From Oceanispirochaeta sp. (lineage in GTDB: Bacteria > Spirochaetota > Spirochaetia > DSM-2461), in the NCBI RefSeq assembly GCF_027859075.1, contig NZ_JAQIBL010000105.1:1-46347 (forward strand): a stretch of 46,347 nucleotides of DNA, given 5' to 3'. This document shows, piece after piece, positions 26,367 to 45,903 of this stretch (position 1 is the first letter of the stretch; every line of letters starts with the position of its first letter). The notes below the pieces were generated by a model. That model made no database searches. It had not been told where the DNA came from and saw only the letters and a list, made by a program, of their open reading frames with translations. The position numbers and the translations under genes were made by a program.

Positions 26367-28802
26367 TTATAATTTTTGCTTATCAAGAACTTCATTAACA
26401 GCAGCAATCAATTTTTCTTTATTCAAAGGTTTTGCCAAAATTTTTTTAATTCCTATTTGCCGTATTCTTTCTTCTGATATTTCATTTATATATCCGGTGC
26501 AGAGGATTATCGGGGTGTTTTCCCTCAGCTCCAGAATTGATGCAGCAAGATTCTCTCCTGTAACGTCAGGCATCATCTGATCGGTGATTACAACGTCAAA
26601 GAAATCTGGTTTCTTTGAAAAAATATTTAACGCCTCAAGTGGGTCAGAAGTTCTTGTAACATGACATCCACGCCGTAGGAAAATATTTTCTACCATTTTC
26701 GCGATGGGTTCCTCATCGTCTACAAATAAAATATTTACCTCTCCGGAGGAGATCTCCGTAGATTCCGTACTTTTTTCCTTACTGTCAATATCGTCAGTTA
26801 CATGAAAATATATATTGATGGTGACACCTTCTCCGGTATTACGTTCAAGAGTCAAACCACCTTTATATTTCGATATAATTCCGTGAACTACAGATAGACC
26901 CATTCCTGTTCCTTTCCCTTGAGCCTTTGTTGTGAAAAATGGATCAAAAATTAAATCAATTATATCATCAGGTATCCCTATACCATTGTCTTTTGTACTG
27001 AGTTTGATGTAATCACCAGGTTCTAATTCACCGGTAACAGTATTCAGAGGATTGCTCAGATGGATGTCTGAAAGGCCTATTTGTAAAGTTCCGCCATGTT
27101 CCTCCATGGCATGCCACGAATTTGTGCAAAGATTCATCATAATCTGATGTATTTGGGTCGGGTCGGCAAGAATATAAGAATCACTGTCAATGGATTGCTT
27201 TACCTTGATGTTAGATGGTAAAGACGCCCTGAGAAGTTTGATCGTCTCTTTTATCAGCACTTTGGGTTGAAGTGGTCTGATAATCTGCTCAGTTTCTCGA
27301 CTGAAAGTAAGAATCTGTTGCACCAGACTTGTTGCTCGATCAGAAGCCCTCTGTACCTCTGTGAGATATTCTATAACTTCTGGAGATTTGGCATCAGCCT
27401 TGGCCAGCTCAGTATAGCCAATGATGGCAGACAGAATGTTGTTAAAATCGTGGGCTATTCCACCGGACAGAACTCCCAGAGCCTCCATCTTCTGCGTTTG
27501 TAACAGCTGCTTTTCGAGTTCTTTACGATTTGAAATATTAACAGCTATCGACCTGCTTTCAATAATATTACCGTCAAGATCCTTCACTGATTCAACAGAA
27601 AGACTTACCCAGATTGGTTTTCCATCTGAACTTATCATCTGCAGCTCTTCATCAACTATTGATTCTCCCTGTTTAAACCTTTCTGATATTTCCTTTGCTT
27701 TCTCTTTGCCATTGGGAGACTCCATATAAAGATCCAGAACATTCATTTTCTCTAATACTTCCGCTGTATAACCAAGCATTTTTTGCGCGCCCACATTACA
27801 ACGTTTAACTCTTCCTTCCTTAGCATCAATTGTGAAATATGCAGATGGGGCATTATCAAAAAGTTCCCGGTACTGTTCCTCACTTACTCGTAATTTTTCA
27901 GTTATAGATAAAAGATCCGATGTTTTTTCCTTTATTCTCATTTTCAAAAATAGGGACAGACCAATAAATATAATAATGAAACTGGCCAATCCTCCGATAG
28001 TTTGTTTTAGCCAGGTCGGGGTTCCGTATGGAACTGGTTCTTCGGCAAACCATTTCGCCAAAGATCTATAATAAAAGGATTCGCGGTCGATTTTCATTTT
28101 TACTAGATGTTTATCAAGAGCACTAATAATCAATGGGTTGGAATTTTTTGAAGCAGCAAAATGTAACCGTGTTGGATGAAAAATAATACCTGTTTCCCTA
28201 ATGTTAGACGACATATGAGCAGCTCCATAAAACCTGTTGACAACAGCCGCATCTACTTTTCCTTCTGCCAGTAATTGAAATACTTTGTGATAATCGGGGA
28301 GTAAAACCAGTTCACAATTTAACCCGAACTGCATCAAATGCCCTTTGAGGGCATCAGCCTGAACCGATTGGTTTAATACGGCAACCTTTTTACCAGTAAG
28401 ATCAACTATGGAATTGATTTTTGATTCGTTTCCGGTATAGATCTGAAACCAGTCGGAGAGTACAGGCTCTTTGTTGAAATTCCAGCGATTCCTGCGCGCC
28501 TCGCTAAATGCCACATCAACCATGATGTCTATTTCTGAATTATCCAAGGCTGACAAGCACTCGTCCCAGGTACCCAATTTATATTTAATCTTCCAACCTT
28601 CTACCCGACCAATTTCTTCGATGAGCTCCACAAAAAAACCAGCTGGCTGATTGTCCTTATTCAAAAAAACCTTTGGCTCATTTTCATAGACCCCAACAGT
28701 AATCACAGCAGGTTCAGCGACTAGGGGAGAACAAACAAACATGAAAACCAGCAAGATGGCAGCCATCCACCCGGAATATACATTATTAGTTCGAAAACTC
28801 AT
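26367..28802 (-). CDS. Hybrid sensor histidine kinase with periplasmic binding-protein sensor, PAS and receiver
   Basis: 811 residues, in order: a signal/anchor segment; an SBP_bac_3-type periplasmic domain (about 32-260; VYENEPKVFLNKDNQPAGFFVELIEE); a transmembrane helix (about 275-293); a PAS domain (about 310-430); a HisKA domain with His451 in GGIAHDFNN; an HATPase_c domain with DNGIGIP and GKGTGMGLSVVHG; and a C-terminal receiver with phospho-acceptor Asp741 in VITDQMMPD. It probably senses an amino acid or similar small ligand outside the membrane. No partner regulator is adjacent, so its output is unknown. It converges on the AraC gene. Confidence 0.92.
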   Translation of the reverse strand: MSFRTNNVYSGWMAAILLVFMFVCSPLVAEPAVITVGVYENEPKVFLNKDNQPAGFFVELIEEIGRVEGWKIKYKLGTWDECLSALDNSEIDIMVDVAFSEARRNRWNFNKEPVLSDWFQIYTGNESKINSIVDLTGKKVAVLNQSVQADALKGHLMQFGLNCELVLLPDYHKVFQLLAEGKVDAAVVNRFYGAAHMSSNIRETGIIFHPTRLHFAASKNSNPLIISALDKHLVKMKIDRESFYYRSLAKWFAEEPVPYGTPTWLKQTIGGLASFIIIFIGLSLFLKMRIKEKTSDLLSITEKLRVSEEQYRELFDNAPSAYFTIDAKEGRVKRCNVGAQKMLGYTAEVLEKMNVLDLYMESPNGKEKAKEISERFKQGESIVDEELQMISSDGKPIWVSLSVESVKDLDGNIIESRSIAVNISNRKELEKQLLQTQKMEALGVLSGGIAHDFNNILSAIIGYTELAKADAKSPEVIEYLTEVQRASDRATSLVQQILTFSRETEQIIRPLQPKVLIKETIKLLRASLPSNIKVKQSIDSDSYILADPTQIHQIMMNLCTNSWHAMEEHGGTLQIGLSDIHLSNPLNTVTGELEPGDYIKLSTKDNGIGIPDDIIDLIFDPFFTTKAQGKGTGMGLSVVHGIISKYKGGLTLERNTGEGVTINIYFHVTDDIDSKEKSTESTEISSGEVNILFVDDEEPIAKMVENIFLRRGCHVTRTSDPLEALNIFSKKPDFFDVVITDQMMPDVTGENLAASILELRENTPIILCTGYINEISEERIRQIGIKKILAKPLNKEKLIAAVNEVLDKQKL

Positions 28803-34416: not shown

Positions 34417-35466
34417 ATGGATAAATATTATATGGATTATTCATACCAGAGAAAAGTTCAGGCTGAAGCCAGAGACGTTGTGAACAGTCAGTTGAACCTT
34501 AATCTCATCAGAGACTTCGTCATCGATACGGGGGTTGTTCTGAATGCGTCTCTTTTTGGCGGGAAGCCAAACTATCACTCCAATTCAACACCCGTTCTGG
34601 TCCCTGTCATCAACGACCCATCAGACGTCGCTGCTCTTGCAAAAAGAATCGACTCCCTCTCGGATGAAGCTTTAATGCATGAAGGGATTCTGCAGAAGCA
34701 TCACTGGGAAGCCGCTGAATTCTGGAAAAACAGCGAGGGAAGACCTCTTCAGGCACCGGCCAGTGAGGGAACAAAAGGAATCGCCACGGTATGCGGTCAG
34801 CTCTGTGGTGTAACCAACTTCCTGATGTGGCTAATATTGAATCCCGAAGAAATGAAAGAACTGACATCCCTGGTAGGAAGAACCTTTAAAAGATATATAG
34901 GAGCCTGCCGAGGATTTGAGGGTAAAGAAGATCTGAATCAACTATCTTTCGCATCAGATGTTTCCGGTCTTATGTCACCAGAGTTTTACGATGAGTTCTG
35001 TGCGCCCCATGAAAAAGATCTTTATGAGGAGTTTGCTCCTACGGGAATTCGCTATTATCACTCCGATTCCAATATGAAACAGCATGTGGGTATACTGGAT
35101 AAAATAGGGGTTACCGACGTGAATATAGGCCCCATGATCTCGGTCGCAGAAATCATCTCCCAGGTTCCTGCCATGCGGATTCACGGACAGGTGCCCCCGG
35201 TACGAGTGCTCTGGCAGGGCTCCACTGATCTGGTTGTTGATTCTGTCAGGCAGGATATAAACGATATGACCAGTTCCGGAGCCGACCTCTCTCAGCTTGT
35301 AGTCTGTACAGCCGGATCGGTCAATCCGGGTACTCCCCTGGAAAATATAGAAGCCATGCTCTGGGCAGCGATGGAATTCGGGTTATTAAAAGGAAATGTC
35401 AAAGAGTCCTTGAGCTCCATACCTGTTGATTTTGACAGAAAAGAACATGTGAATCAAATTTCCTGA
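34417..35466 (+). CDS. Uroporphyrinogen decarboxylase-like protein (second copy)
   Basis: 349 residues from ATG 34417. Superfamily features are VCGQLCGVTNFLMWLILNPEEM, ASDVSGLMSPEFYDEF, IRYYHSDSNMKQH (HxD where the other copy has HxC), VTDVNIGPMIS, and a C-terminal TAGSVNPGTPLENIEAM. The HxD and the lack of a late Cys separate it from the zinc-site copy at 9162. It diverges from the Gfo/Idh/MocA gene. The 5' end is uncertain because a better ribosome site lies at an in-frame ATG 117 bases upstream, beyond a TAG. Function is unknown. Confidence 0.75.
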   Translation: MDKYYMDYSYQRKVQAEARDVVNSQLNLNLIRDFVIDTGVVLNASLFGGKPNYHSNSTPVLVPVINDPSDVAALAKRIDSLSDEALMHEGILQKHHWEAAEFWKNSEGRPLQAPASEGTKGIATVCGQLCGVTNFLMWLILNPEEMKELTSLVGRTFKRYIGACRGFEGKEDLNQLSFASDVSGLMSPEFYDEFCAPHEKDLYEEFAPTGIRYYHSDSNMKQHVGILDKIGVTDVNIGPMISVAEIISQVPAMRIHGQVPPVRVLWQGSTDLVVDSVRQDINDMTSSGADLSQLVVCTAGSVNPGTPLENIEAMLWAAMEFGLLKGNVKESLSSIPVDFDRKEHVNQIS

Positions 35467-35772
35467 TTCTCAGTCTCAAGATGGCAATTCAGCCGTTACG
35501 GATCACCCCTTGTTTTCTCCAGGGAGCCTCCCTACCACCGGAGGCATCATAATCTCATTTTTTAATGCAATAGCAGAGTTCCTGAACTGTATATTTAAAT
35601 GTCTTATTGAACCTTGAACCAAAAAATCAAACACCGAGCTATCAATTTTGACCGACAAGATTCCTTTCCCGATCTAGAAAGCTGGGCTTTGATGAATACT
35701 CACTTTACATTCTGGAAGGGTTTAGAGCATCATGAGAAGAAATCTTTTTTATCCGGGTAGGAGATCAATAAC
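35467..35772. other. Intergenic region before the esterase/two-component/ABC operon
   Basis: About 306 bases with no gene. CTTTC-N8-GAAAG near 35670-35687 is a small palindrome. It resembles, but does not match in spacing, the TTTCTA-N6-TAGAAA site before the binding-protein gene at 40458. One plus-strand reading near 35640-35750 is open for about 35 codons without a start or recognisable family. Confidence 0.4.
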
Positions 35773-37308
35773 ATGACCGAAGAGTTTCAAATTGCCCTCA
35801 TATTTCAAGACGGGATGGTTCTACAGAGAGATAAGAAGATCTCCCTATGGGGTTCCGGTCCTGATGATGAGGTGGTCACTGTCAGGATTCAGAACCGTCA
35901 AGCCCGGGCAGTCGTTCAAAAAAAGAAATGGATGGTCATTCTTCCTCCCCTGGAAACATCGGAATCAGAGACCCTGGAACTGTCCTGCGGGAACCGGAGG
36001 ATTGTACTGCAGAATATTGCCGTCGGAGAGGTTTGGATAGCCGGAGGGCAGTCCAACATGGAGTTCTTTGTCCGGTATGATGAAGAGGCTGAAAATATCC
36101 TGCAAAGAGATGAAAACAGAAACATCCGTTTCTTTGACTATCCTGAGCTGGCCTACCCGGGGCAGAGAGAGGAACGGGACTACTCCAGGTACGGAGTCTG
36201 GAGGGTCTGTAATGCCTCTCATCTGGAATACTTCAGTGCGGTCGGTTACCACTTTGCAGACCGGCTTCATCGTGATCTGGGAGTCCCTGTAGGGATTGTC
36301 GGCTGCAACTGGGGCGGAACTCCCGCCTGTGCCTGGATGGATACTGACTACCTTGCAGACAATGACGGGAAAATATGGATTGAAGAGTTCAATAATGCCA
36401 CCGCCGGTCTGGATAGGGAACTCTATCTGGAAAAATACAGATCCGATGCCGGTAATTTCAGAAACGATATCTTCTCCGATAAGAAAGGAGAGGCCTTGAT
36501 GTTCGGGATGTCCCGGGAGGATCAACTGGCTTTTATGGAGTCACCTGACTTTTCCGAAGAGATAAATCCGGGACCCTTTGATAAATGCCGTCCTGGAGGG
36601 CTCTACGAGAGCATGGTCCGTGAAGTCGCACCCTACTCCGCCAGAGGAGTCCTGTGGTATCAGGGAGAGTCGGATGACAAGCATCCTGAGATTTACAGAA
36701 CAGTACTGTCTTCGTTGATCCGATGCTGGAGGGACAGCTGGAATGAGGATCTGCCCTTTCTTTTTGTTCAGCTGGCGCCTTTTAAAGAGTGGCTGAAATG
36801 TTATGGCGAGACATATCCCATCCTCAGGGAGGAGCAGGAACAGGTCGCCGGTCATGTTCAGGATGTCTGGATGGCATCCATCATGGATGCCGGGGAAGAA
36901 TGGGATATTCACCCGCGGAAGAAAAAACCAGTGGGAGAGAGGTTGGCTCTTCTGGCGGAGGGAAAGGTATACGGCAGGGACATTTTATGTGAATCACCTG
37001 TGTTTACGGATTATACCCTGGAACCGGGAAGACTGACATTGAGTTTCTGTCATGCCGAAGGTGGATTGTCAATAAAAGGAGAGAGCCGCCATATTTCTGC
37101 CCTGGAACTTCGTGTTCACGGCGCCGGTCTAGCTAATTTTGAGTCCCGAGTCGAGGGTGACAGCGTCGTCCTGACTCATAAAAGTCTGGTGCCGGAAAAT
37201 CATGTGGAAGTCAGCTTTGCCGGGACTGATTATTGCGAGGTGAATCTTTTCAATGCGGCCGGACTCCCTGCCAGACCCTTCTCAATGACTGCGGGAAAAA
37301 GGGATTAG
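35773..37308 (+). CDS. Sialate O-acetylesterase-like carbohydrate esterase (SGNH hydrolase)
   Basis: 511 residues with no signal peptide. The SGNH nucleophile is Ser94 in GGQSNMEF. GVPVGIVGCNWGGTPACAWM and GVLWYQGESD form the oxyanion and support blocks, and Asp378-x-His380 (DIHP, then K-PVGERLALLA) is the catalytic dyad. Relatives remove acetyl groups from sialic acids or from xylan and other oligosaccharides. In this operon, with an ABC importer and GH3, de-acetylation of an imported acetylated oligosaccharide is likely (inference). It is followed after 4 bases by the sensor kinase. Confidence 0.9.
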   Translation: MTEEFQIALIFQDGMVLQRDKKISLWGSGPDDEVVTVRIQNRQARAVVQKKKWMVILPPLETSESETLELSCGNRRIVLQNIAVGEVWIAGGQSNMEFFVRYDEEAENILQRDENRNIRFFDYPELAYPGQREERDYSRYGVWRVCNASHLEYFSAVGYHFADRLHRDLGVPVGIVGCNWGGTPACAWMDTDYLADNDGKIWIEEFNNATAGLDRELYLEKYRSDAGNFRNDIFSDKKGEALMFGMSREDQLAFMESPDFSEEINPGPFDKCRPGGLYESMVREVAPYSARGVLWYQGESDDKHPEIYRTVLSSLIRCWRDSWNEDLPFLFVQLAPFKEWLKCYGETYPILREEQEQVAGHVQDVWMASIMDAGEEWDIHPRKKKPVGERLALLAEGKVYGRDILCESPVFTDYTLEPGRLTLSFCHAEGGLSIKGESRHISALELRVHGAGLANFESRVEGDSVVLTHKSLVPENHVEVSFAGTDYCEVNLFNAAGLPARPFSMTAGKRD

Positions 37309-37312
37309 TATC

Positions 37313-39706
37313 ATGGATAAGTTTGATATCGAACAGGTCCGGAGTAAACCTTTCCGGCACAACCGGATAGCCGTTCTAGGGGCCGAGATCAACGAGGCCT
37401 ACCAGTCGGAGCTATGGCGGGGCATCGCGGAAGAGGCCGGTCGGTTTTCCAAGGATATCATCTGTTTTCTGGGGTCCCGGGGGAATACAGCCTTCAAGGA
37501 TGAGGAGAAATCCACACCCTTCTACAGACTGGCCCATTCGGGAAATTTCGACGGTATCATCATTATCTCCTCCGCGGTTTCCACCTATCTCGGGCCGGAG
37601 CAGGTCCGTTCTCTCTTCGATTCCAGACCTCTGATTCCGAAAATATCCATAGGATTTCAGCTGGAAGGGGTGGGAAGCGTCTGCGTGGACGGGAGCGATG
37701 CCATGGGGCAGGTAACCGAACACCTGATCACCCGGCATCAGAGAAAGAATTTTGCGCTTATTGCCGGCCCCGAATGGCATCCGGAGTCGGAGCAGAGGCG
37801 TCTGGCTATTCTTCAGAAGCTGGATCAATACGGTTTAAACCTGGACCGGGACCTTCTCATTTTCGGAGGATTTGAAGTCAGTTCCGGGAGAAAATCCGTA
37901 CGGGAACTTCTTGCCAGGGGGAAACCCATAGATACGGTGTTGTGTCTGAATGACCAGATGGCCATGGGGGCGGTTGCCGAACTGACCTCCCTGGGGATCT
38001 CCGTCCCCGATTCTATTGCGGTCTGCGGTTTTGACGGCATTGAAGAGTCTGAATACTGTTCTCCTCCGTTAACTACGGTTGCCCAGCCCCTGTACCAGGT
38101 GGGTGTTACAGCCGTCCAGGAGTTGTACCGCCTGATGGAGGGGCTCCCTCCCCGGGATGTGAAACTCAACTGCAGACCTGTTTACAGACAGTCCTGTTCC
38201 TGCGGATTTGATTCTTCAGGGATGGACATTAAGGACCATACCGAATCGCCGTCAATGGGGGACGACATCCTGGCAGAAACCTTCAATCAGGAGATTATTC
38301 ACTCCTCCTTTACAGAGAAGGGGGGGGAACTGTTTCTTCAGAGCATCGACAGTATCGTCAAGTCTTCCATGTTCAATCACCATAATCTTCCCCTTCTGGA
38401 AGAAGCGATCGGCAGACTTGAAAATGATACTCCCCAGCCCTTTTCCGATTGGCTTCCTGTTTTAAGAACGGCCAGGAAAATCCTCTGGGAGGCTAAAAAC
38501 AGATATCTTATCAGCAGACAGTTCAGAAAAAAATACAGAAGCGACATGTTGAGAAGTGTGAGTACGTCTCTTTCGGGAGTTTTTGAATTTCCAGAATTGT
38601 TTCTTAATCTGGCTGCCGGTTTGAAAAACCTGGGGTTCAATCACGGTTTTCTCGTTATGTATGATGACAGAACTGAGGATAAAAAGCTGAAGTTTCAGCT
38701 GGTGTTCTGTCTGAAAAATGGGGAATTTTGCCGGATGGAGCCCCGGACATTTGATAATTCCGAGGTTCTTCCCGATATCTCCCGGGACCTGGAAACGGAT
38801 GACTGCAAACTCTGGATGTTTACCCCCCTGGTCTTTCAGAAAAAAGCCATCGGCCATATGCTTCTCCCCGGATCCTACCCGGATCCCGAAATTTATGAGA
38901 CTCTGACAAAACAGATTGCCAGTTCTCTGCAGGGAGCCCTGCTTCTGGAACAGGTAAGGACCCATGAGCAGAGTCTTGTTCAGGAAGTACAGAAAAGGAC
39001 CCAGGAACTGACCGAGGCGAACCGCAATCTGATTCAGGAAATCGGTACCAGAATTCGCCTTGAGCAGGAGGTTGTGGATATCTCCAAACACACCATGGAA
39101 AGGATCGGTCAGGATCTCCATGACGATCTTTGTCAGCATTTGGCGGGTGTCTCCCTCCATATCAGTGCTCTCAGGCACAGAGTGGAGAAAAAGTCTCCCG
39201 AAACGGTTCCGACCATCGACTCCATCAACAACCTGCTCAGTGATTCCATCAAACGGGCCAAAGGGATCGTCCGGGGGCTGCTTCCTATCGGAATCTCTGA
39301 AGAAGGGGGTTCCAGAGCCCTTGAGATCCTCTGCCTGGAGATGTCCAGGTCATCGGGTATGAAGATTATCTTTACAGGAAATGATGATTTCCGTCTCCTC
39401 CCGGCGAACAGGGCGATTGAACTCTACAGGATTGTACAGGAAGGGTTGAACAACTCTGTGAAACACTCCCGGGGCAGCATGATTGAGGTGACACTGAATT
39501 CGGAACAGGACGGGGAAGTCCTGAAATTCTCTGCTATAATACAGGACAACGGGATAGGGTTTACCCCTGAAGCCGATGCCGAGGGGATGGGTTTGAAGAT
39601 TATGAAGTACAGGGGAGAACGGGCGGATATCGACCTGGAGATAGAGAGCACCGGGACGGGAACCAGGGTCGTCTGCCGGGGAATACAGAGGATAAGCGAT
39701 GACTAA
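37313..39706 (+). CDS. Cytoplasmic histidine kinase with LacI/PBP1-like sugar sensor
   Basis: 797 residues with no membrane segment. Residues about 18-300 are a LacI-type periplasmic-binding fold without its DNA-binding domain: IAVLGAEIN, VSTYLGPEQVRSL, DAMGQVTEHLI, and CGFDGIEESEYCSPPLTTVAQP. A linker and GAF-like region (about 330-540) and a coiled coil (about 545-590) follow. The HisKA_3-type phosphoacceptor is His603 in QDLHDDLCQHLAG. HATPase motifs are EGLNNSVKHS, DNGIGFTP and GMGLKIM. It should sense a sugar inside the cell and phosphorylate the response regulator, whose start codon overlaps its stop (ATGACTAA). Confidence 0.9.
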   Translation: MDKFDIEQVRSKPFRHNRIAVLGAEINEAYQSELWRGIAEEAGRFSKDIICFLGSRGNTAFKDEEKSTPFYRLAHSGNFDGIIIISSAVSTYLGPEQVRSLFDSRPLIPKISIGFQLEGVGSVCVDGSDAMGQVTEHLITRHQRKNFALIAGPEWHPESEQRRLAILQKLDQYGLNLDRDLLIFGGFEVSSGRKSVRELLARGKPIDTVLCLNDQMAMGAVAELTSLGISVPDSIAVCGFDGIEESEYCSPPLTTVAQPLYQVGVTAVQELYRLMEGLPPRDVKLNCRPVYRQSCSCGFDSSGMDIKDHTESPSMGDDILAETFNQEIIHSSFTEKGGELFLQSIDSIVKSSMFNHHNLPLLEEAIGRLENDTPQPFSDWLPVLRTARKILWEAKNRYLISRQFRKKYRSDMLRSVSTSLSGVFEFPELFLNLAAGLKNLGFNHGFLVMYDDRTEDKKLKFQLVFCLKNGEFCRMEPRTFDNSEVLPDISRDLETDDCKLWMFTPLVFQKKAIGHMLLPGSYPDPEIYETLTKQIASSLQGALLLEQVRTHEQSLVQEVQKRTQELTEANRNLIQEIGTRIRLEQEVVDISKHTMERIGQDLHDDLCQHLAGVSLHISALRHRVEKKSPETVPTIDSINNLLSDSIKRAKGIVRGLLPIGISEEGGSRALEILCLEMSRSSGMKIIFTGNDDFRLLPANRAIELYRIVQEGLNNSVKHSRGSMIEVTLNSEQDGEVLKFSAIIQDNGIGFTPEADAEGMGLKIMKYRGERADIDLEIESTGTGTRVVCRGIQRISDD

Positions 39707-40364
39707 GAAATTTATCATAGTGGATGATCATCCCATTTTCAGACACGGTCTTGTCACTCTGATTCAAACCGATGAGAACTACCATGTTTCCGCCGAGGCC
39801 AGCAGTATAGAAGAAGTATTTGAACTGTTGAAGACATCCTCCCCGGACATCATTATTGTGGACATAACCCTCAACAATCAGAACGGTCTGGACCTGGTAC
39901 AGAAACTGCAGCCTCATGAACCGAAGATCCCGATTCTCGTTGTCTCCATGCATGATGAAGAGGTGTATGCGGAACGGTCCATCCAGAGTGGAGCATTGGG
40001 GTATGTGATGAAGCACTCTCCGCCGGAAGTGATCATGGAAGCCATCGGCACCGTCCTGAAAGGGAAAATCTACCTGTCCGAATCCATACAGAAGAAAATC
40101 GTGGAAGCCCGATTCAGCCAGCCCCAGGGCGGACGTACTCCCATGATAGAAAGCCTCAGTCAGAGGGAAATGGAGATACTCCAGTACATCGGACAGGGCT
40201 TCGGGGCCAGTGAAATTGCCGGGATTCTAACACTGTCGGTCAAAACCATCCACACCTACCGAGATCATCTCAAACAGAAACTGCAGATTGACTCCTCCCA
40301 GGAATTGAGGAAATTTGCTATTAAATGGAATCAGTCCATGATTACCAATCCGGGCTCTAGGTAG
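39699..40364 (+). CDS. NarL/FixJ-type response regulator
   Basis: 221 residues. The receiver domain has Asp55 in IIIVDITLNNQNGL, the conserved Ser/Thr and Lys region VVSMHDEEVYAERSIQSGALGYVMKHS, and a LuxR-type HTH (LSQREMEILQYIGQG, SEIAGILTLSVKTIHTYRDHLKQKL). It overlaps the kinase gene by 8 bases, so the two form a pair. It probably controls the ABC transporter and GH3 genes that begin at 40458, through the palindrome at 40358-40405. Confidence 0.93.
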   Translation: MTKKFIIVDDHPIFRHGLVTLIQTDENYHVSAEASSIEEVFELLKTSSPDIIIVDITLNNQNGLDLVQKLQPHEPKIPILVVSMHDEEVYAERSIQSGALGYVMKHSPPEVIMEAIGTVLKGKIYLSESIQKKIVEARFSQPQGGRTPMIESLSQREMEILQYIGQGFGASEIAGILTLSVKTIHTYRDHLKQKLQIDSSQELRKFAIKWNQSMITNPGSR

Positions 40365-40405
40365 AAATACCTACCCTAAGTTCATACTTTCTACCTCTAT
40401 AGAAA
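40358..40405. promoter_or_regulatory. Candidate response-regulator site: nested TAGAAA/TTTCTA inverted repeats
   Basis: TAGGTA-GAAA-TACCTA is a perfect palindrome at 40358-40373. TTTCTA (40388-40393) and TAGAAA (40400-40405) form a second inverted repeat with a 6-base centre. GGTAGAAA (40360-40367) is also the exact reverse complement of TTTCTACC (40388-40395). The cluster ends at the -35 region of the promoter at 40421, fitting activation by the adjacent NarL-type regulator. Confidence 0.5.
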
Positions 40406-40420
40406 CCATCTTTGTTCATT

Positions 40421-40426
40421 TATAAT
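40421..40426 (+). promoter_or_regulatory. -10 box TATAAT for the binding-protein gene, weak -35
   Basis: A perfect TATAAT lies 31 bases before the binding-protein start codon at 40458. The -35 position (about 40397-40403) holds TATAGA, not TTGACA, so an activator is probably needed. The TTTCTA-N6-TAGAAA repeat overlaps this -35 region. Confidence 0.5.
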
Positions 40427-40457: not shown

Positions 40458-41759
40458 ATGAAAAAAGCAATGCGTATTATGTATTTATCTGCTCTTTTCT
40501 TTTTGTCTGTGACACTGGTTTTTGCAGCCGGACAGCAGGACAAAAAGGCGGCAAGTGATGATGGTGTCACCTTCTCATGGTGGGCTCTCTCCGGAGGTGG
40601 CGGGGTTGATGATCCCCGTGAACTAGCCAGACAGGAAATGATTGATGAATATGAAGCATCCCACCCCGGTGTTCATATCGAACTGGTCATGCTGGAAAAT
40701 GAAGCATTCAAACAGAAGATTCAGGTCGCCATTCAGGCAGGTAATCCGCCTGATATGTTCCATTCATGGGGCGGCGGTGTCATGATTGAATATGCCAAAT
40801 CCGGAATGCTCAGAGACATTACTGATGCTGTAAATAACGATCTGAGCAAGAGAATCGGTATCGGTACACTGGGTGTTTACGGTGATGCCGGTAAATACTA
40901 TGGCGGACCTTATGATATGGGTGCCGTTGGAATGTGGTACAACAAGGATATCTTCAAAGAAGTCGGTGTAGCCGTTCCCGAAACATGGGATGACCTACTG
41001 AAGATCGTTCCCAAAATTAAGGCTGCCGGATATGTTCCCATCGCCCTGGGCGGCGGCGACAAATGGCCTGCACACTTCTGGTGGGTTTACCTTGCCATGA
41101 GAGTCGGCGGAAAAGAAGCGTTTGATAAAGCCTATAACGGAACCGGTTCTTTTGCGGACGAGCCCTTTGTCAGGGCGGGAGAAAAACTTCTTGAGCTTGT
41201 AAAACTTGATCCCTTCCAGACAGGATACCTGGGGTCCAGCTATGATGATGAAGCGGCTCTGATGGGTAACAAAAAAGCGGCCATGGAGTTGATGGGGCAG
41301 TGGGCACCCGGTGTTCAGGTTGCCAACTCTGTCAATGGTGAAGGCCTTGGTTCTTCTCTTGGATGGTTCTCCTTCCCCGCAGTCGCCGGAGGTGCCGGGA
41401 AACTGACTGATGTCATGGGCGGTGGCGGAGGATATGTTCTGGGTAAGAATGCTCCTGACGAAGCCGTTGATTTCCTGAAATTCCTCCTGAACAAAGAAAA
41501 TAACATAACTCTGTCCAAAGTAGAAGGTTCCATTCCCGTAGTAGCAGGAGCCGAAGTGGCTCTTGAAGGGAATGAAAATGCAGTCAAAATGGTCAAGGCC
41601 ATTGCTTCTGCCGATTACTATCAGCTCTACTACGATCAGTTCCTTCCCCCCGCGGTCGGCGAAGCCGTTAAAGACGCTGTAGCCAATCTTTTTGCCGGCG
41701 TCAGCACTCCCAAAGAGAGTGCCGAAGCCATACAGTCATCATGGGAAGATAACAAATAA
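40458..41759 (+). CDS. Sugar ABC transporter substrate-binding protein (CUT1)
   Basis: 433 residues. A signal peptide (MKKAMRIMYLSALFFLSVTLVFA) is followed by AGQQDKK, the same style as the other binding proteins here. The mature part is a CUT1 binding protein: FSWWALSGGGG, DEYEASHPGV, VAIQAGNPPDMFHSWGGGVM, GMWYNKDIFKEVGVAVPETWDDLL and AVDFLKFLLNKENN. Gly-rich loops (GGGDKW, MGGGGGYV) are typical. GGAGG precedes the ATG. It delivers an oligosaccharide to the two permeases downstream. A strong terminator lies just after it. Confidence 0.93.
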   Translation: MKKAMRIMYLSALFFLSVTLVFAAGQQDKKAASDDGVTFSWWALSGGGGVDDPRELARQEMIDEYEASHPGVHIELVMLENEAFKQKIQVAIQAGNPPDMFHSWGGGVMIEYAKSGMLRDITDAVNNDLSKRIGIGTLGVYGDAGKYYGGPYDMGAVGMWYNKDIFKEVGVAVPETWDDLLKIVPKIKAAGYVPIALGGGDKWPAHFWWVYLAMRVGGKEAFDKAYNGTGSFADEPFVRAGEKLLELVKLDPFQTGYLGSSYDDEAALMGNKKAAMELMGQWAPGVQVANSVNGEGLGSSLGWFSFPAVAGGAGKLTDVMGGGGGYVLGKNAPDEAVDFLKFLLNKENNITLSKVEGSIPVVAGAEVALEGNENAVKMVKAIASADYYQLYYDQFLPPAVGEAVKDAVANLFAGVSTPKESAEAIQSSWEDNK

Positions 41760-41828: not shown

Positions 41829-42722
41829 ATGTCCTCTAAACCCTTGAGTATTCAGGCGAATATCCGGAAAGCAGTTCTCATTGGAGCCCTTCTTGCTCCT
41901 GCTTTGATTCTATTCAATGTCTTTGTTGTCATCCCCGTCTTTCAGGCAGGGTTCTACTCACTTTTCAAATGGAATGGAATCGGTCCGCTTCAAGACTTTA
42001 TTCTTTTTGACAATTTTAAAAAGATTCTGAATGACAGGATTTTCCATATTGCTCTGAAGAACAATTTTAAAGTCATTCTTATTTCACTTTTGATTCAGCT
42101 TCCGCTGGCATTCTGTGTGGCCCTGCTGCTGGGACGTAACAAATTCCGGGGAGAGGCTTTTCTGCGCAGTATTTTCTTTTTCCCCTACATCCTTGCAGAA
42201 ATCGTTTCAGGTATTATCTGGAAATTTATATATAATCCCCAGTTCGGTGTTCCAACCATATTCTCACGCTACTTTCTGGACGGGCATGAAATCGGATTAA
42301 TGGGAGATCCGGAAAAGGCGTTCAGTGCCATCCTTGTGGTCATTATCTGGAAGTATCTCGGATTCCACATGATTCTCTATATTGCAGGATTGCAGGGTGT
42401 TCCCACGTCCCTGGAAGAGGCCGCCACGATTGATGGAGCGAACAGACTGCAGGTCGTCCGCCATGTGATCATTCCCTGTATGAAAAATACCTTTGTCATA
42501 TCCATATTCCTTTCAATCATCGGTGCCTTCAATATCTTTGATGTTGTCTGGGCCCTGGGACAGGGCGGGCCGGTTCACAGTTCCGAGACCCTTGTCACCT
42601 ATCTTTACAATTTCGGATTTAAAAGAATGTCCTTCGGATACGGAAGTGCTGTTGCTGTAACACTGTTCTGCTTCTGCTTCGTATTTAATCTGGTATACCA
42701 GAGAATGGTACGGGAGGACTGA
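41829..42722 (+). CDS. Sugar ABC transporter permease (MalF/UgpA type)
   Basis: 297 residues, six transmembrane helices. The EAA loop LEEAATIDGANRLQVVRHVIIP (near residues 197-218) is the ATPase contact. LIGALLAPALILFNVFVVIPVFQAGFYS is a typical first helix. It is followed after 7 bases by the second permease. It needs a shared ATPase from elsewhere. Confidence 0.94.
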   Translation: MSSKPLSIQANIRKAVLIGALLAPALILFNVFVVIPVFQAGFYSLFKWNGIGPLQDFILFDNFKKILNDRIFHIALKNNFKVILISLLIQLPLAFCVALLLGRNKFRGEAFLRSIFFFPYILAEIVSGIIWKFIYNPQFGVPTIFSRYFLDGHEIGLMGDPEKAFSAILVVIIWKYLGFHMILYIAGLQGVPTSLEEAATIDGANRLQVVRHVIIPCMKNTFVISIFLSIIGAFNIFDVVWALGQGGPVHSSETLVTYLYNFGFKRMSFGYGSAVAVTLFCFCFVFNLVYQRMVRED

Positions 42723-42729
42723 GGTCACA

Positions 42730-43557
42730 ATGAAAAAAAACAAAAACAATACAGTTCAATTGATAATCAGCACCATTGGTGCCGTCATTTTTTTCTTCCC
42801 CGTTTATGCGGTTATTATCGGTAGTTTTAAAACAAACGGGCAGCTAATGAACGATCCCTTCGGCATTCCCAACCCCTTCATTCCGGATGCCTATCTCCTC
42901 ATACTGCTCAAGAGCAGCCAGTTCTGGACGTTCCTGTTCAACTCGGTTTTTATCTCCAGCTCCGTGATTGTATTGACTCTGGCCTCTGCCATGCCTGCTT
43001 CTCTGGCCCTGTCCAGAATCAGATTTCGGGGACAGACATTCATCTATAATTTCTTCCTGATGGGCATGCTGTTTCCCATCACCGTCGCCATTCTTCCTCT
43101 GTATCTGCAGCTCCGCAATTTCGGTCTTCTGGGCACGAGGTTCGGGCTGGATCTGGCCCAGGCGGCATTCAGCCTTCCATTGAGTATTTTCATCTTCACG
43201 GGTTTCTTCCGGGAAGTTCCCAATGAGCTGCAGGATGCTGTTTTCATTGACGGAGGAGGACTGATTACCTTCGGTACCAAAGTGGTTCTGCCCCTTTCTA
43301 CACCGGTTATTTCAACTGTTACGATCATTACACTCATTCAGAGCTGGAATCAGTTTCTCATGCCTCTGCTGGTCCTGGATAATCCGCAGAAATTCACCAT
43401 TCCTCTGGGAGTCATGCAGTTCCAGGGGCAGTTCACAACCAACTGGAATCAAATCATGGCTTTTATATCCATATCTCTACTGCCCATGACCCTGTTCTAT
43501 ATCTTCTTACAGAAATACATCGTTGCCGGACTGACAGCAGGCGCGGTCAAAGGATAA
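42730..43557 (+). CDS. Sugar ABC transporter permease (MalG/LacG type)
   Basis: 275 residues, six helices. The EAA loop LQDAVFIDGGGLITFGTKVVLPLSTP (about 164-189) and the C-terminus LQKYIVAGLTAGAVKG match this subfamily. It is the partner of the permease upstream and is followed after 3 bases by GH3. Confidence 0.94.
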   Translation: MKKNKNNTVQLIISTIGAVIFFFPVYAVIIGSFKTNGQLMNDPFGIPNPFIPDAYLLILLKSSQFWTFLFNSVFISSSVIVLTLASAMPASLALSRIRFRGQTFIYNFFLMGMLFPITVAILPLYLQLRNFGLLGTRFGLDLAQAAFSLPLSIFIFTGFFREVPNELQDAVFIDGGGLITFGTKVVLPLSTPVISTVTIITLIQSWNQFLMPLLVLDNPQKFTIPLGVMQFQGQFTTNWNQIMAFISISLLPMTLFYIFLQKYIVAGLTAGAVKG

Positions 43558-43560
43558 TTT

Positions 43561-45903
43561 ATGCAGATGAGAGATCAAGCCAGAGAATTGGTTGGAAAAA
43601 TGACCCTGGAAGAAAAGATTTCCCAGCTGCACAGTCTATGGCTGAATATCGGCGATGACGGCAAGCTGACCATGAAATCTCTGAATGGATATCATCCTGA
43701 AGTGGGATCTCAAGATCCTTTTGAGTTTATGAAGAACGGAATCGGACAGATTACCCGCCCCCTGGGCAGTCAGGATATAGATCCTGTCACGGCTGTGCGG
43801 GAGCTGAACCGTATCCAGCACTTCCTTGTGAACAACACACGGCTCGGGATTCCGGCCCTCCCCCATGAGGAGTGTCTGGCGGGGCTGATGGCCGGGGGGG
43901 CCACCATATTCCCCGCAGGAATCAACAACGGTTCCACCTGGGATGAGGATCTTATAGAGAGGGTGGGCAGCGCCATCGGAGAAGAGGTTTATTCTGTCGG
44001 TTCCCGTCAGGGACTCTCCCCTGTTCTGGATGTCTGCCGGGATGCCCGCTGGGGCAGGACAGAGGAGACTTTTGGCGAGGACCCCTATCTGGCAGCCATT
44101 CTGGGCAGTGCCTATGTGAGAGGTCTTCAGGATTCAAGGCATCCTGTCATTGCCACGCTCAAGCATTATGCCGGACACTCCTTCAGCGAGGGAGCCCGGA
44201 ATCATGCACCTGTGAGAATCGGCCGGCGTGAGCTCAATGATCTGTTTCTCTTTCCCTTTGAGATGGCTGTGAAGTATGCCAGGGCAGGCTCCATCATGCC
44301 CGCATACCACGACATAGACGGCGAACCCCTCCATCAATCCAAAGAGCTTCTTGGTGATCTGCTGAGGGGAAGGTGGGGATTTGAAGGAATCCTGGTCTCC
44401 GACTACGGCGGGCTGGAGCAGCTTGTTACCGATCACCGGACACAACCGGATAAGGCCCATGCCGCCGCCGCATCTCTCCTGGCGGGGATGGATGTGGAGC
44501 TGCCGGCAAACACCCTCTATCCCGAGGGAATTCCGGAAGCATTGAAACAGGGTCTGATCTCCATAAGCGATGTGGATGAGGCCGTGACCCGGCATCTTAT
44601 CCAGAAAATCAAGGCAGGCTTGTTCAGCAATCCCTATACTGACGAAGCCCTCGTTCTCTCCAGTGTGGCCGAGCATGAGCCTCTGGCTCTGGAAGCGGCG
44701 GAAAAGTCCATGGTTCTGATTAAGAATGACGGAATCCTTCCTCTCAAAGGAGCCGGTAAAATTGCACTGATAGGACCTTTGGCGGACGATACAATGGGTA
44801 TGATGGGGGGGTATTCCTTTCCAATTCATCTCATCATTGCCCATAACAAGGATAAAACGTCACAGATCCAGACTCTGAAGGGAAGCCTGGAGGCCTCCTT
44901 TGACGGAGAGGTTTTGTACGCCAAGGGCTGCGATGTTCTGATAAGCAGACCGGATAAACCTGCCGTATTCCCGGGAGACATTGTGGCTGACGGCAGCATG
45001 CAGACTGATTTTGTCAGCCGGGATACCAGCCGGATCGCAGAAGCTGTTGCAACGGCCAAAAGGGCAGATACGGTTGTGCTGGCCGTGGGTGACCTGGCCG
45101 GTCTTTTTCTCAGCGGCACCGTGGGAGAAGGCTCTGATGTCAGCTCCCTGACCCTGCCGGGGGTTCAGCAGGAACTCATTGATGCCGTACTTGAACTGGG
45201 AAAACCCACCGTGATTGTCGTTTTCAGCGGACGGCCCTACCATCTGGGCAAAGGTTTCAGGAAAGCCGGAGCGGTTCTGCAGGCCTGGCTTCCCGGTCAG
45301 AAGGGGGCGGCTGCGGCTTCTAATGTTCTGCTGGGCAGGACAAATCCCGGCGGAAAACTCCCTGTCTCCATACCAAGATGCGCCGGTGCCATGCCCTATT
45401 TTTACAACCACAAGATGAAGTCGGCAGGAACTCCGATACAGAAAGATTTCGGTGCTGAATACCCCTTCGGCCACGGATGCTCTTATACGAACTTTCTGAT
45501 CGAGTCCTGTGAGCTTACAGAGGACACGGTTCCTGTAGAGGGGAGCATACAAGTTTCTGCTCAAGTAAAAAATATCGGTGATGTCCAGGGGGACGAGGTG
45601 ATTCAGGTTTACACCCGGGATCTTTATGCCCGGTATGTCAGGCCGATTCAGGAGTTGAAGGCATTCCAGCGGATTACACTGGCTCCCGGAGAATCCTGCC
45701 GTGTCAGCTTTAATATTCCTACAGATCTGGTCAGCTACACCATTGATTCCGGAAACCGTATTGTAGAACCGGGAGACCTGGAGATCATGGTGGGCACAAG
45801 CTCCAAGGATATCGTCAGTAAACTACGGGTGACTCTGACAGGTCAACCCAGAATCCTGGGAGAGGACTGGAGGATGAAGTCTCTGGTTACCATCTCAAAA
45901 TAA
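43561..45903 (+). CDS. GH3-family glycoside hydrolase (beta-xylosidase/beta-glucosidase type)
   Basis: 780 residues with no signal peptide, so cytoplasmic. The GH3 N-terminal barrel has RLGIPALPHEECLAGL, RWGRTEETFGEDPYLAAILG, LKHYAGHS, and the nucleophile Asp281 in ILVSDYGG. A GH3 C-terminal domain (about 390-630) and an Fn3-like domain (about 650-750; NIGDVQGDEVIQVYT) follow, the usual beta-glucosidase/xylosidase arrangement. HEECLAG is common in xylosidase-type members. It would finish hydrolysis of the oligosaccharide imported by the preceding ABC transporter. It closes the operon. Confidence 0.93.
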   Translation: MQMRDQARELVGKMTLEEKISQLHSLWLNIGDDGKLTMKSLNGYHPEVGSQDPFEFMKNGIGQITRPLGSQDIDPVTAVRELNRIQHFLVNNTRLGIPALPHEECLAGLMAGGATIFPAGINNGSTWDEDLIERVGSAIGEEVYSVGSRQGLSPVLDVCRDARWGRTEETFGEDPYLAAILGSAYVRGLQDSRHPVIATLKHYAGHSFSEGARNHAPVRIGRRELNDLFLFPFEMAVKYARAGSIMPAYHDIDGEPLHQSKELLGDLLRGRWGFEGILVSDYGGLEQLVTDHRTQPDKAHAAAASLLAGMDVELPANTLYPEGIPEALKQGLISISDVDEAVTRHLIQKIKAGLFSNPYTDEALVLSSVAEHEPLALEAAEKSMVLIKNDGILPLKGAGKIALIGPLADDTMGMMGGYSFPIHLIIAHNKDKTSQIQTLKGSLEASFDGEVLYAKGCDVLISRPDKPAVFPGDIVADGSMQTDFVSRDTSRIAEAVATAKRADTVVLAVGDLAGLFLSGTVGEGSDVSSLTLPGVQQELIDAVLELGKPTVIVVFSGRPYHLGKGFRKAGAVLQAWLPGQKGAAAASNVLLGRTNPGGKLPVSIPRCAGAMPYFYNHKMKSAGTPIQKDFGAEYPFGHGCSYTNFLIESCELTEDTVPVEGSIQVSAQVKNIGDVQGDEVIQVYTRDLYARYVRPIQELKAFQRITLAPGESCRVSFNIPTDLVSYTIDSGNRIVEPGDLEIMVGTSSKDIVSKLRVTLTGQPRILGEDWRMKSLVTISK

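Follow-up and report, generated by a model that had tools for sequence, protein, structure and literature searches.

The locus

The window, that is, the whole stretch of DNA that was analysed, consists of 46,347 nucleotides from Oceanispirochaeta sp. (contig NZ_JAQIBL010000105.1). Found there on the forward strand are genes which encode, in turn, a carbohydrate esterase, a histidine kinase, a response regulator, an ABC importer, and a glycoside hydrolase of family GH3 (Table 1). The esterase gene ends 4 nt upstream of the kinase gene, the kinase and regulator genes overlap by 8 nt, and a 93-nt gap separates the regulator from the importer, with GH3 following the latter. The sequence-only reading had placed the kinase in one operon with the esterase, to be followed by the importer and GH3 genes. 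Both the operon and that gene order stand, with the qualification that the importer and GH3 genes probably form a second transcription unit, as they possess a conserved promoter of their own (40358-40426).

Upstream of the esterase, at 34417-35466 (+), a URO-D family protein is found along with a divergent Gfo/Idh/MocA-type protein. At 26367-28802 (-) the window also encodes a hybrid kinase consisting of SBP_bac_3 input, PAS, HisKA, and receiver, i.e., a second binding-protein-type sensor kinase, this one of the more usual kind.

Table 1. Features of the kinase locus, in window coordinates.
Feature	Position	Strand	Basis
SGNH/SASA-type carbohydrate acetylesterase, no signal peptide, first gene of kinase operon	35773..37308	+	Pfam SASA 6.7e-15
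LacI-sensor histidine kinase, 797 aa, cytoplasmic	37313..39706	+	ORF call, Pfam, hydropathy, AF2, VIA-align
LacI/PurR-type ligand-binding domain, aa ~11-297, no HTH	37343..38203	+	VIA-align, Peripla_BP_3, invariant R162/N213/D241
SCxC motif (S-C-S-C), aa 294-297, end of ligand domain	38192..38203	+	in 17/17 rows of alignment A2
GAF-fold domain, about aa 424-545	38582..38947	+	AF2 model of segment, Foldseek to 5w10, 3ci6, 3oov
HisKA_3 dimerisation/phosphoacceptor domain, H603 in IGQDLHDDLCQ	39098..39286	+	Pfam HisKA_3 1.9e-10; invariant
HATPase_c domain, N box (N714) and G boxes (DNGIGF, GMGLKIM)	39413..39676	+	Pfam 2.6e-8; alignments
NarL/FixJ-type response regulator (REC and GerE HTH)	39699..40364	+	Response_reg 2.9e-27, GerE 5.9e-15
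Distal operator (candidate) TAGGTAGAAATACCTA, TAGG-N8-CCTA palindrome, overlaps regulator stop codon	40358..40373	+	top-ranked dyad, genome-rare
Proximal weaker half-site (candidate), CC 24 bp downstream of palindrome CC	40382..40397	+	alignment of 16 promoters
-10 element (putative) TATAAT, 63 nt from operator start, no good -35	40421..40426	+	spacing across loci
ABC solute-binding lipoprotein (SBP), xylo-oligosaccharide type	40458..41759	+	SBP_bac_1; nearest solved structures
ABC permease 1	41829..42722	+	60-74% identical homologues beside SBP in related loci
ABC permease 2	42730..43557	+	60-74% identical homologues beside SBP in related loci
GH3 beta-xylosidase type, no signal peptide (cytoplasmic)	43561..45903	+	NCBIfam, nearest solved structure

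Architecture of the kinase

Roughly the first 300 residues of the kinase had been read as the ligand domain of a LacI repressor, and structural comparison bears this out. In an AF2 model of the full protein (pLDDT 78, with 17 homologues as input), residues 7-297 superpose by VIA-align on LacI-family repressors, i.e., PurR (1qpz, Z 28.0 over 277 residues) and RbsR (9ny7, Z 27.6), with CcpA as well as PurR among the best structural matches of this domain, while Foldseek matches the N-terminus to an ancestral LacI (9nt4) with a TMt of 0.84. Pfam places Peripla_BP_3 at residues 136-295 (1.7e-25, 90.5 bits) and Peripla_BP_1 at residues 23-285. Residues R162, N213, and D241 are invariant in 8 orthologues (alignment A1). 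These are the equivalents of R197, N246, and D274 of LacI, which we take to be the ligand-contact residues of that protein, with the LacI numbering having been placed on the kinase through alignment to the ancestral LacI chain.

What this sensor lacks, as had likewise been claimed, is the DNA-binding part of a repressor. The LacI HTH profile (PF00356) has no Pfam match in the kinase, and the kinase ORF is absent from the 23 places in the genome that carry a LacI HTH. As an in-frame stop codon lies immediately 5' of the kinase start, such an HTH has not been overlooked by way of a wrongly chosen start.

Because VIA-align on the full model reached residues 11-297 only, the middle segment was modelled and searched separately. 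Modelled alone (pLDDT 83), it consists of a helical linker (about residues 316-421) and then a GAF fold, which Foldseek matches to 5w10 (E 1.3e-4, TMt 0.56), 3ci6 (TMt 0.60), and also 3oov. A GAF-like segment, as first proposed, is indeed present in terms of fold, although the Pfam GAF profile yields no match to the kinase at E 0.1, and its sequence is poorly conserved, with a single invariant column in alignment A4.

The C-terminal half carries HisKA_3 (residues 596-658) and HATPase_c (residues 701-788). H603 (in HDDLCQ), N714, D745, and the glycines of the ATP lid are invariant in aligned orthologues, and a motif check finds the kinase motifs intact in 15 held-out homologues as well. A 19-aa hydropathy scan, in which the kinase peaks at 1.3 vs. 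2.7 for ABC permease 1, reveals neither membrane helix nor signal peptide; by the same measure, the extracytoplasmic sensor and transmembrane segments of periplasmic-sensing sugar two-component systems are not present. The protein thus stands much as it was first described, that is, as a NarL-type kinase without membrane helix, its N-terminus being of the PBP1/LacI fold and its kinase motifs being intact, rather than inactive, in homologues.

Neighbouring genes and regulator

The nearest solved structure to the esterase, which is found directly 5' of the kinase also in loci L122 and L236, is 9h4u, ‘Carbohydrate esterase FI8’ (204 bits). For the SBP the nearest are XylA (8xba, 312 bits) and a xylo-oligosaccharide (XOS)-binding protein (3zkk/4c1t, 210 bits), and for GH3 a beta-xylosidase (7zb3, 626 bits), with the NCBIfam beta-xylosidase/alpha-L-arabinosidase model matching the latter at 764 bits, which is under its cut-off of 1050. 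The specificities which these relatives suggest for SBP, GH3, and esterase point to xylan. Signal peptides are missing from both esterase and GH3, which agrees with a scheme in which acetylated oligosaccharides are imported and then processed inside the cell. With its XOS-type SBP and predicted cytoplasmic beta-xylosidase, the locus is, as judged from gene families, a xylo-oligosaccharide ABC/GH3 utilisation locus.

In the response regulator, both the VDI phosphoacceptor and the recognition-helix region are conserved in an alignment of orthologous regulators. Phosphotransfer from the kinase to this NarL/FixJ-type protein is predicted, based on the overlap of their genes and on the recurrence of an adjacent regulator among related loci.

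Conservation of the module

Kinase orthologues are scattered among members of the class (Spirochaetia), with five further species of the genus yielding none. A full-length kinase profile is matched at E 1e-100 by 38 of 297 genomes, a count which also takes in LacI-PAS-HisKA_3 kinases that are more distant, those of genome G059 among them; a stricter, single-sequence search finds the kinase in 3 of 296 genomes of the phylum. A close SBP is seen in 10 of 61 genomes, with 8 of those 10 also possessing a full-length kinase orthologue.

Across 17 first loci and a held-out set, the regulator adjoins the kinase in every case where the contig extends far enough, and the importer is usually beside the kinase, often with GH3. 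Gene order varies, including SBP-permease-permease-GH3-kinase-regulator (L117), convergent (L118, L232) and divergent (L125) arrangements, and GH3-kinase-regulator (L119, L120). The functional link of kinase, regulator, and importer, usually along with GH3, persists across genomes despite this rearrangement, for which the evidence is strong. Orthologous clusters include GH43, GH67, and GH51 genes, all xylan-related families. The SBP of a Sphaerochaeta-like group is of a different family and lacks a clear xylan assignment. In two MAG contigs (L039, L043) the kinase gene is split over two frames, which may reflect sequencing error or instead decay.

A promoter footprint

Upon reading the 93-nt gap 3' of the regulator, the palindrome TAGGTAGAAATACCTA was spotted. 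Its TAGG-N8-CCTA form ranks first among the palindromic 4-mer dyads, 2936 in all, that occur in 13 upstream regions, where, with up to one mismatch allowed, it is seen in 11; across a control of 60 dinucleotide shuffles the best dyad of any kind reached 7 regions, and TAGG-N8-CCTA itself averaged 1.3. The footprint which precedes the target operon has as its consensus TAGG-N8-CC(T/G)A, a second half-site 24 bp on, and then a -10. Of these, the CC of the second half-site (offset 35/36) is found in 16 of 16 aligned promoters, at 1.67 bits vs. a shuffle 95% level of 0.67. The putative -10 was deduced from spacing across loci, most of the promoters inspected (L121, L117, L118, L119, L120, and L153) having a hexamer that resembles a -10 at offset 62-64. 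In a sigma-70 scan, matches were not in excess of those in shuffles (6 vs. 4.9), and the operon promoter is not listed, as that scan demands a -35. As read from these positions, the arrangement, i.e., tandem candidate dimer sites centred at about -67 and -43 and a -10 without good -35, is the layout of an activator.

The held-out set comprised 20 further loci, less two repeats of earlier ones and less one that ends before the SBP, leaving 17 that were usable, and in 16 of these the site lies upstream of the importer (binomial about 1e-28). Eight of the held-out loci are from one genus-like group. As the sampling of one genus could give rise to an artefact, the set was thinned to one locus per genus, with 9 of 10 then displaying the site (3e-16). 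Within the 4.36-Mb genome, TAGGTAN4TACCTA occurs just once at up to one mismatch, vs. 39 times for a reversed control pattern. For searching the whole genome for a regulon the exact TAGG-N8-CCTA is not long enough, and a longer pattern gave 3 matches. No site was seen before the esterase gene (35467-35772).

Non-homologous importers are likewise preceded by the site when they lie behind the kinase/regulator pair, as in L038, L129, and most held-out loci. Close SBPs have no such site before them in genomes without the kinase (G013, G057) or with a kinase that is unlinked or distant (G007, G012). The footprint, therefore, follows the two-component pair rather than the transporter. Outlying kinases (L017/L125, L238) have kept the neighbourhood but display no clear site before the SBP.

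That the footprint might be residual coding conservation of the 3' end of the regulator was considered and rejected, as it is found also before GH3 (L119/L120) and GH43 (L125) genes, and is ruled out further by footprints which precede importers located away from the regulator (L117, L118, L232).

Additional sites were noted in passing. In a genome with an outlying kinase orthologue, TAGG-N8-CCTA lies before the GH43 gene (L125:9005-9020). In two related genomes a second site, TAGG-N8-CCGA, is found before another ABC importer (SBP_bac_1) within a GH67/GH51 cluster (L153:1318, L152:16171), which likely represents an extra regulon member. A further locus has two operator-like sites, one before the SBP and one directly after the regulator (L237:11209 and 13400).

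A family of HTH-less LacI sensors

Fusions of LacI-like domains with HisKA_3 are found across many Spirochaetia genomes, and the window kinase belongs to a wider group of LacI sensors that are HTH-less. Neither this membership nor the candidate operator had been noted in the sequence-only reading. The outputs of its sensor homologues include HisKA_3, HisKA, GGDEF, GGDEF-EAL, HD-GYP, GerE/LuxR, and MCP, as found in Spirochaetota, Clostridia, Chloroflexota, a gammaproteobacterial MAG, and one MAG labelled Muribaculaceae. The genome under study itself encodes a second such sensor, of 736 aa, with a GAF-like middle and GGDEF output (L002:190-2400, contig C309) and with SCGC at the end of the ligand domain.

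That motif, SCxC, appears to be a family mark. Within this genome it is found in 2 of 30 Peripla_BP_3 proteins, exactly the two HTH-less fusions, and in a broader sample it is present in all fusions of at least 450 aa but in 0 of 14 repressor-sized proteins. One held-out orthologue (L235) has TCGC in its place. With the motif trimmed off first, 51 sensors split from 25 repressors at 100/97 support, in a tree that is unrooted and was sampled by similarity to the query. This is consistent with one origin of HTH-less LacI sensors followed by output swapping. A bolder proposal, which taken as a whole must be viewed as distinctly doubtful, is that (S/T)CxC sensors are single-origin, general-purpose cytoplasmic inputs for nearly every bacterial output class and, in addition, that the invariant CxC, located where the ligand domain gives way to the rest of the protein, serves as a second input, dependent on redox state or on metal, which gates the transmission of sugar binding.

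Individual members are of interest in their own right. One LacI-type sensor is fused to an MCP signalling domain (L035:1519-3768), and is possibly a soluble sugar chemoreceptor. Others (L020, L026, L047) combine the LacI sensor with a C-terminal LuxR/GerE HTH, i.e., as a one-component version of the two-protein system of the window. Genome G059 and relatives in its family (f29; L018, L025, L028-L036) display a large, lineage-specific expansion: a single genome encodes 11 or more HTH-less LacI sensors, and several of these are PAS-containing HisKA_3 kinases.

A proposed mechanism and its alternatives

The reading favoured here, and considered probable, is that of a soluble two-component system which reads an imported, xylan-derived sugar and activates its own uptake and hydrolysis operon, with ligand, phosphotransfer, DNA binding, and polarity being what we infer. 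Xylo-oligosaccharides would be taken up by the ABC importer and then, as enzyme families and absent signal peptides suggest, be deacetylated by the esterase and cut by GH3, both in the cytoplasm. Either the product or the imported oligosaccharide would bind the LacI-type domain, of which the fold and contact residues are seen and the ligand is predicted. Closure of its two lobes may then be relayed through GAF and a coiled coil to HisKA_3, altering either autophosphorylation at H603 or phosphatase activity. The regulator would bind the tandem sites before the SBP-permease-permease-GH3 operon, where the footprint is conserved, and presumably would activate a promoter that lacks a good -35. The ligand domain which in LacI relatives frees DNA would here instead drive phosphorylation, and a single intracellular sugar signal would therefore amount to positive feedback on its own uptake. 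Of the links in this chain, ligand identity and polarity are the least certain.

Polarity could, for example, be the opposite, with the apo sensor keeping the kinase on and sugar turning it off or to a phosphatase, or instead with the regulator repressing until dephosphorylated. Bifunctionality is typical of HisKA_3 enzymes that have an HDxxxQ motif, and LacI-family ligands usually lift repression, both of which lend this some appeal, but sites upstream of a -10 without -35 consensus are the usual layout of an activator rather than of a repressor, and opposite polarity is viewed as unlikely. Held to be improbable as well is that the LacI-type domain binds a non-xylan ligand, whether a phosphorylated intermediate, a nucleoside, or a co-regulator, the latter as CcpA binds HPr. 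LacI-family domains do bind also purines and proteins, as the structural matches to PurR and CcpA may call to mind. In families that are unrelated, the kinase, at 36-40% identity, nevertheless repeatedly has xylan-type neighbours, and the equivalents of the LacI contact residues are invariant.

A different question is which protein binds TAGG-N8-CCTA. The genome has further NarL-type regulators and binding by the cognate one is a prediction; the site, however, tracks the kinase/regulator pair rather than the transporter, and a homodimer would suit its two TACCTA halves, which are inverted and are similar to the NarL heptamer, TACYYMT; another binder is viewed as quite improbable. Least credible, and very improbable, is that the LacI domain has no sensory role, having degenerated into a dimerisation module, and that GAF is the real sensor: GAF domains often sense small ligands, but this one is poorly conserved next to invariant LacI ligand residues, and the same LacI domain is retained with many outputs.

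Relation to known systems

With LacI/GalR repressors (PurR, RbsR, CcpA, LacI) the kinase has in common its ligand-domain fold and ligand residues, differing in its absence of HTH or hinge helix, in its kinase output, and in possessing SCxC. NarX/UhpB/DesK-type kinases and NarL/FixJ regulators are of the same families, but there the sensors are membrane ones whereas here a cytoplasmic LacI domain and GAF are found. E. coli XylR, which has a LacI-type xylose-binding domain on an AraC DNA-binding output, likewise represents such a domain on a new output, albeit as a one-component system rather than a phosphorelay. XylFII-LytS of Clostridia and Bacteroides hybrid systems such as BT1754 likewise couple sugar sensing of the PBP type to a histidine kinase that controls sugar use; these, though, sense extracytoplasmic sugar by means of transmembrane kinases, whereas the window kinase is soluble and is predicted to sense inside.

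There is thus precedent both for PBP-type sugar-sensor kinases and for LacI domains with a different output (XylR). What is new is the linkage of the module despite rearranged order, the promoter footprint, and the (S/T)CxC clade of HTH-less LacI sensors. No description of a soluble LacI-domain histidine kinase was found in the openly accessible literature, a scope that makes this weak evidence of novelty. A review of c-di-GMP signalling does list a ‘Periplas_BP’ input on GGDEF proteins, a domain that LacI regulators have too, and treats it as a putative sensor of solutes of which no example has been studied (PMC8846402). The input there is of the same domain type, as also in the LacI-GGDEF paralogue (L002), and it is the output which differs from that of the kinase.

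Significance

In textbook terms, two-component systems sense the outside and LacI domains repress. Here, by contrast, the intracellular ligand reader of a repressor would appear to feed a phosphorelay, and the combination of a predicted ligand class, an overlapping, presumably cognate regulator, and a near-unique candidate operator makes the system directly testable. The wider family suggests that the LacI ligand domain left behind its DNA-binding half to become a general cytosolic sensor, one serving kinases, c-di-GMP enzymes, chemoreceptors, and LuxR regulators. As such domains usually are assumed to be periplasmic, the family matters for annotation, and it is relevant also to the building of intracellular sugar sensors.
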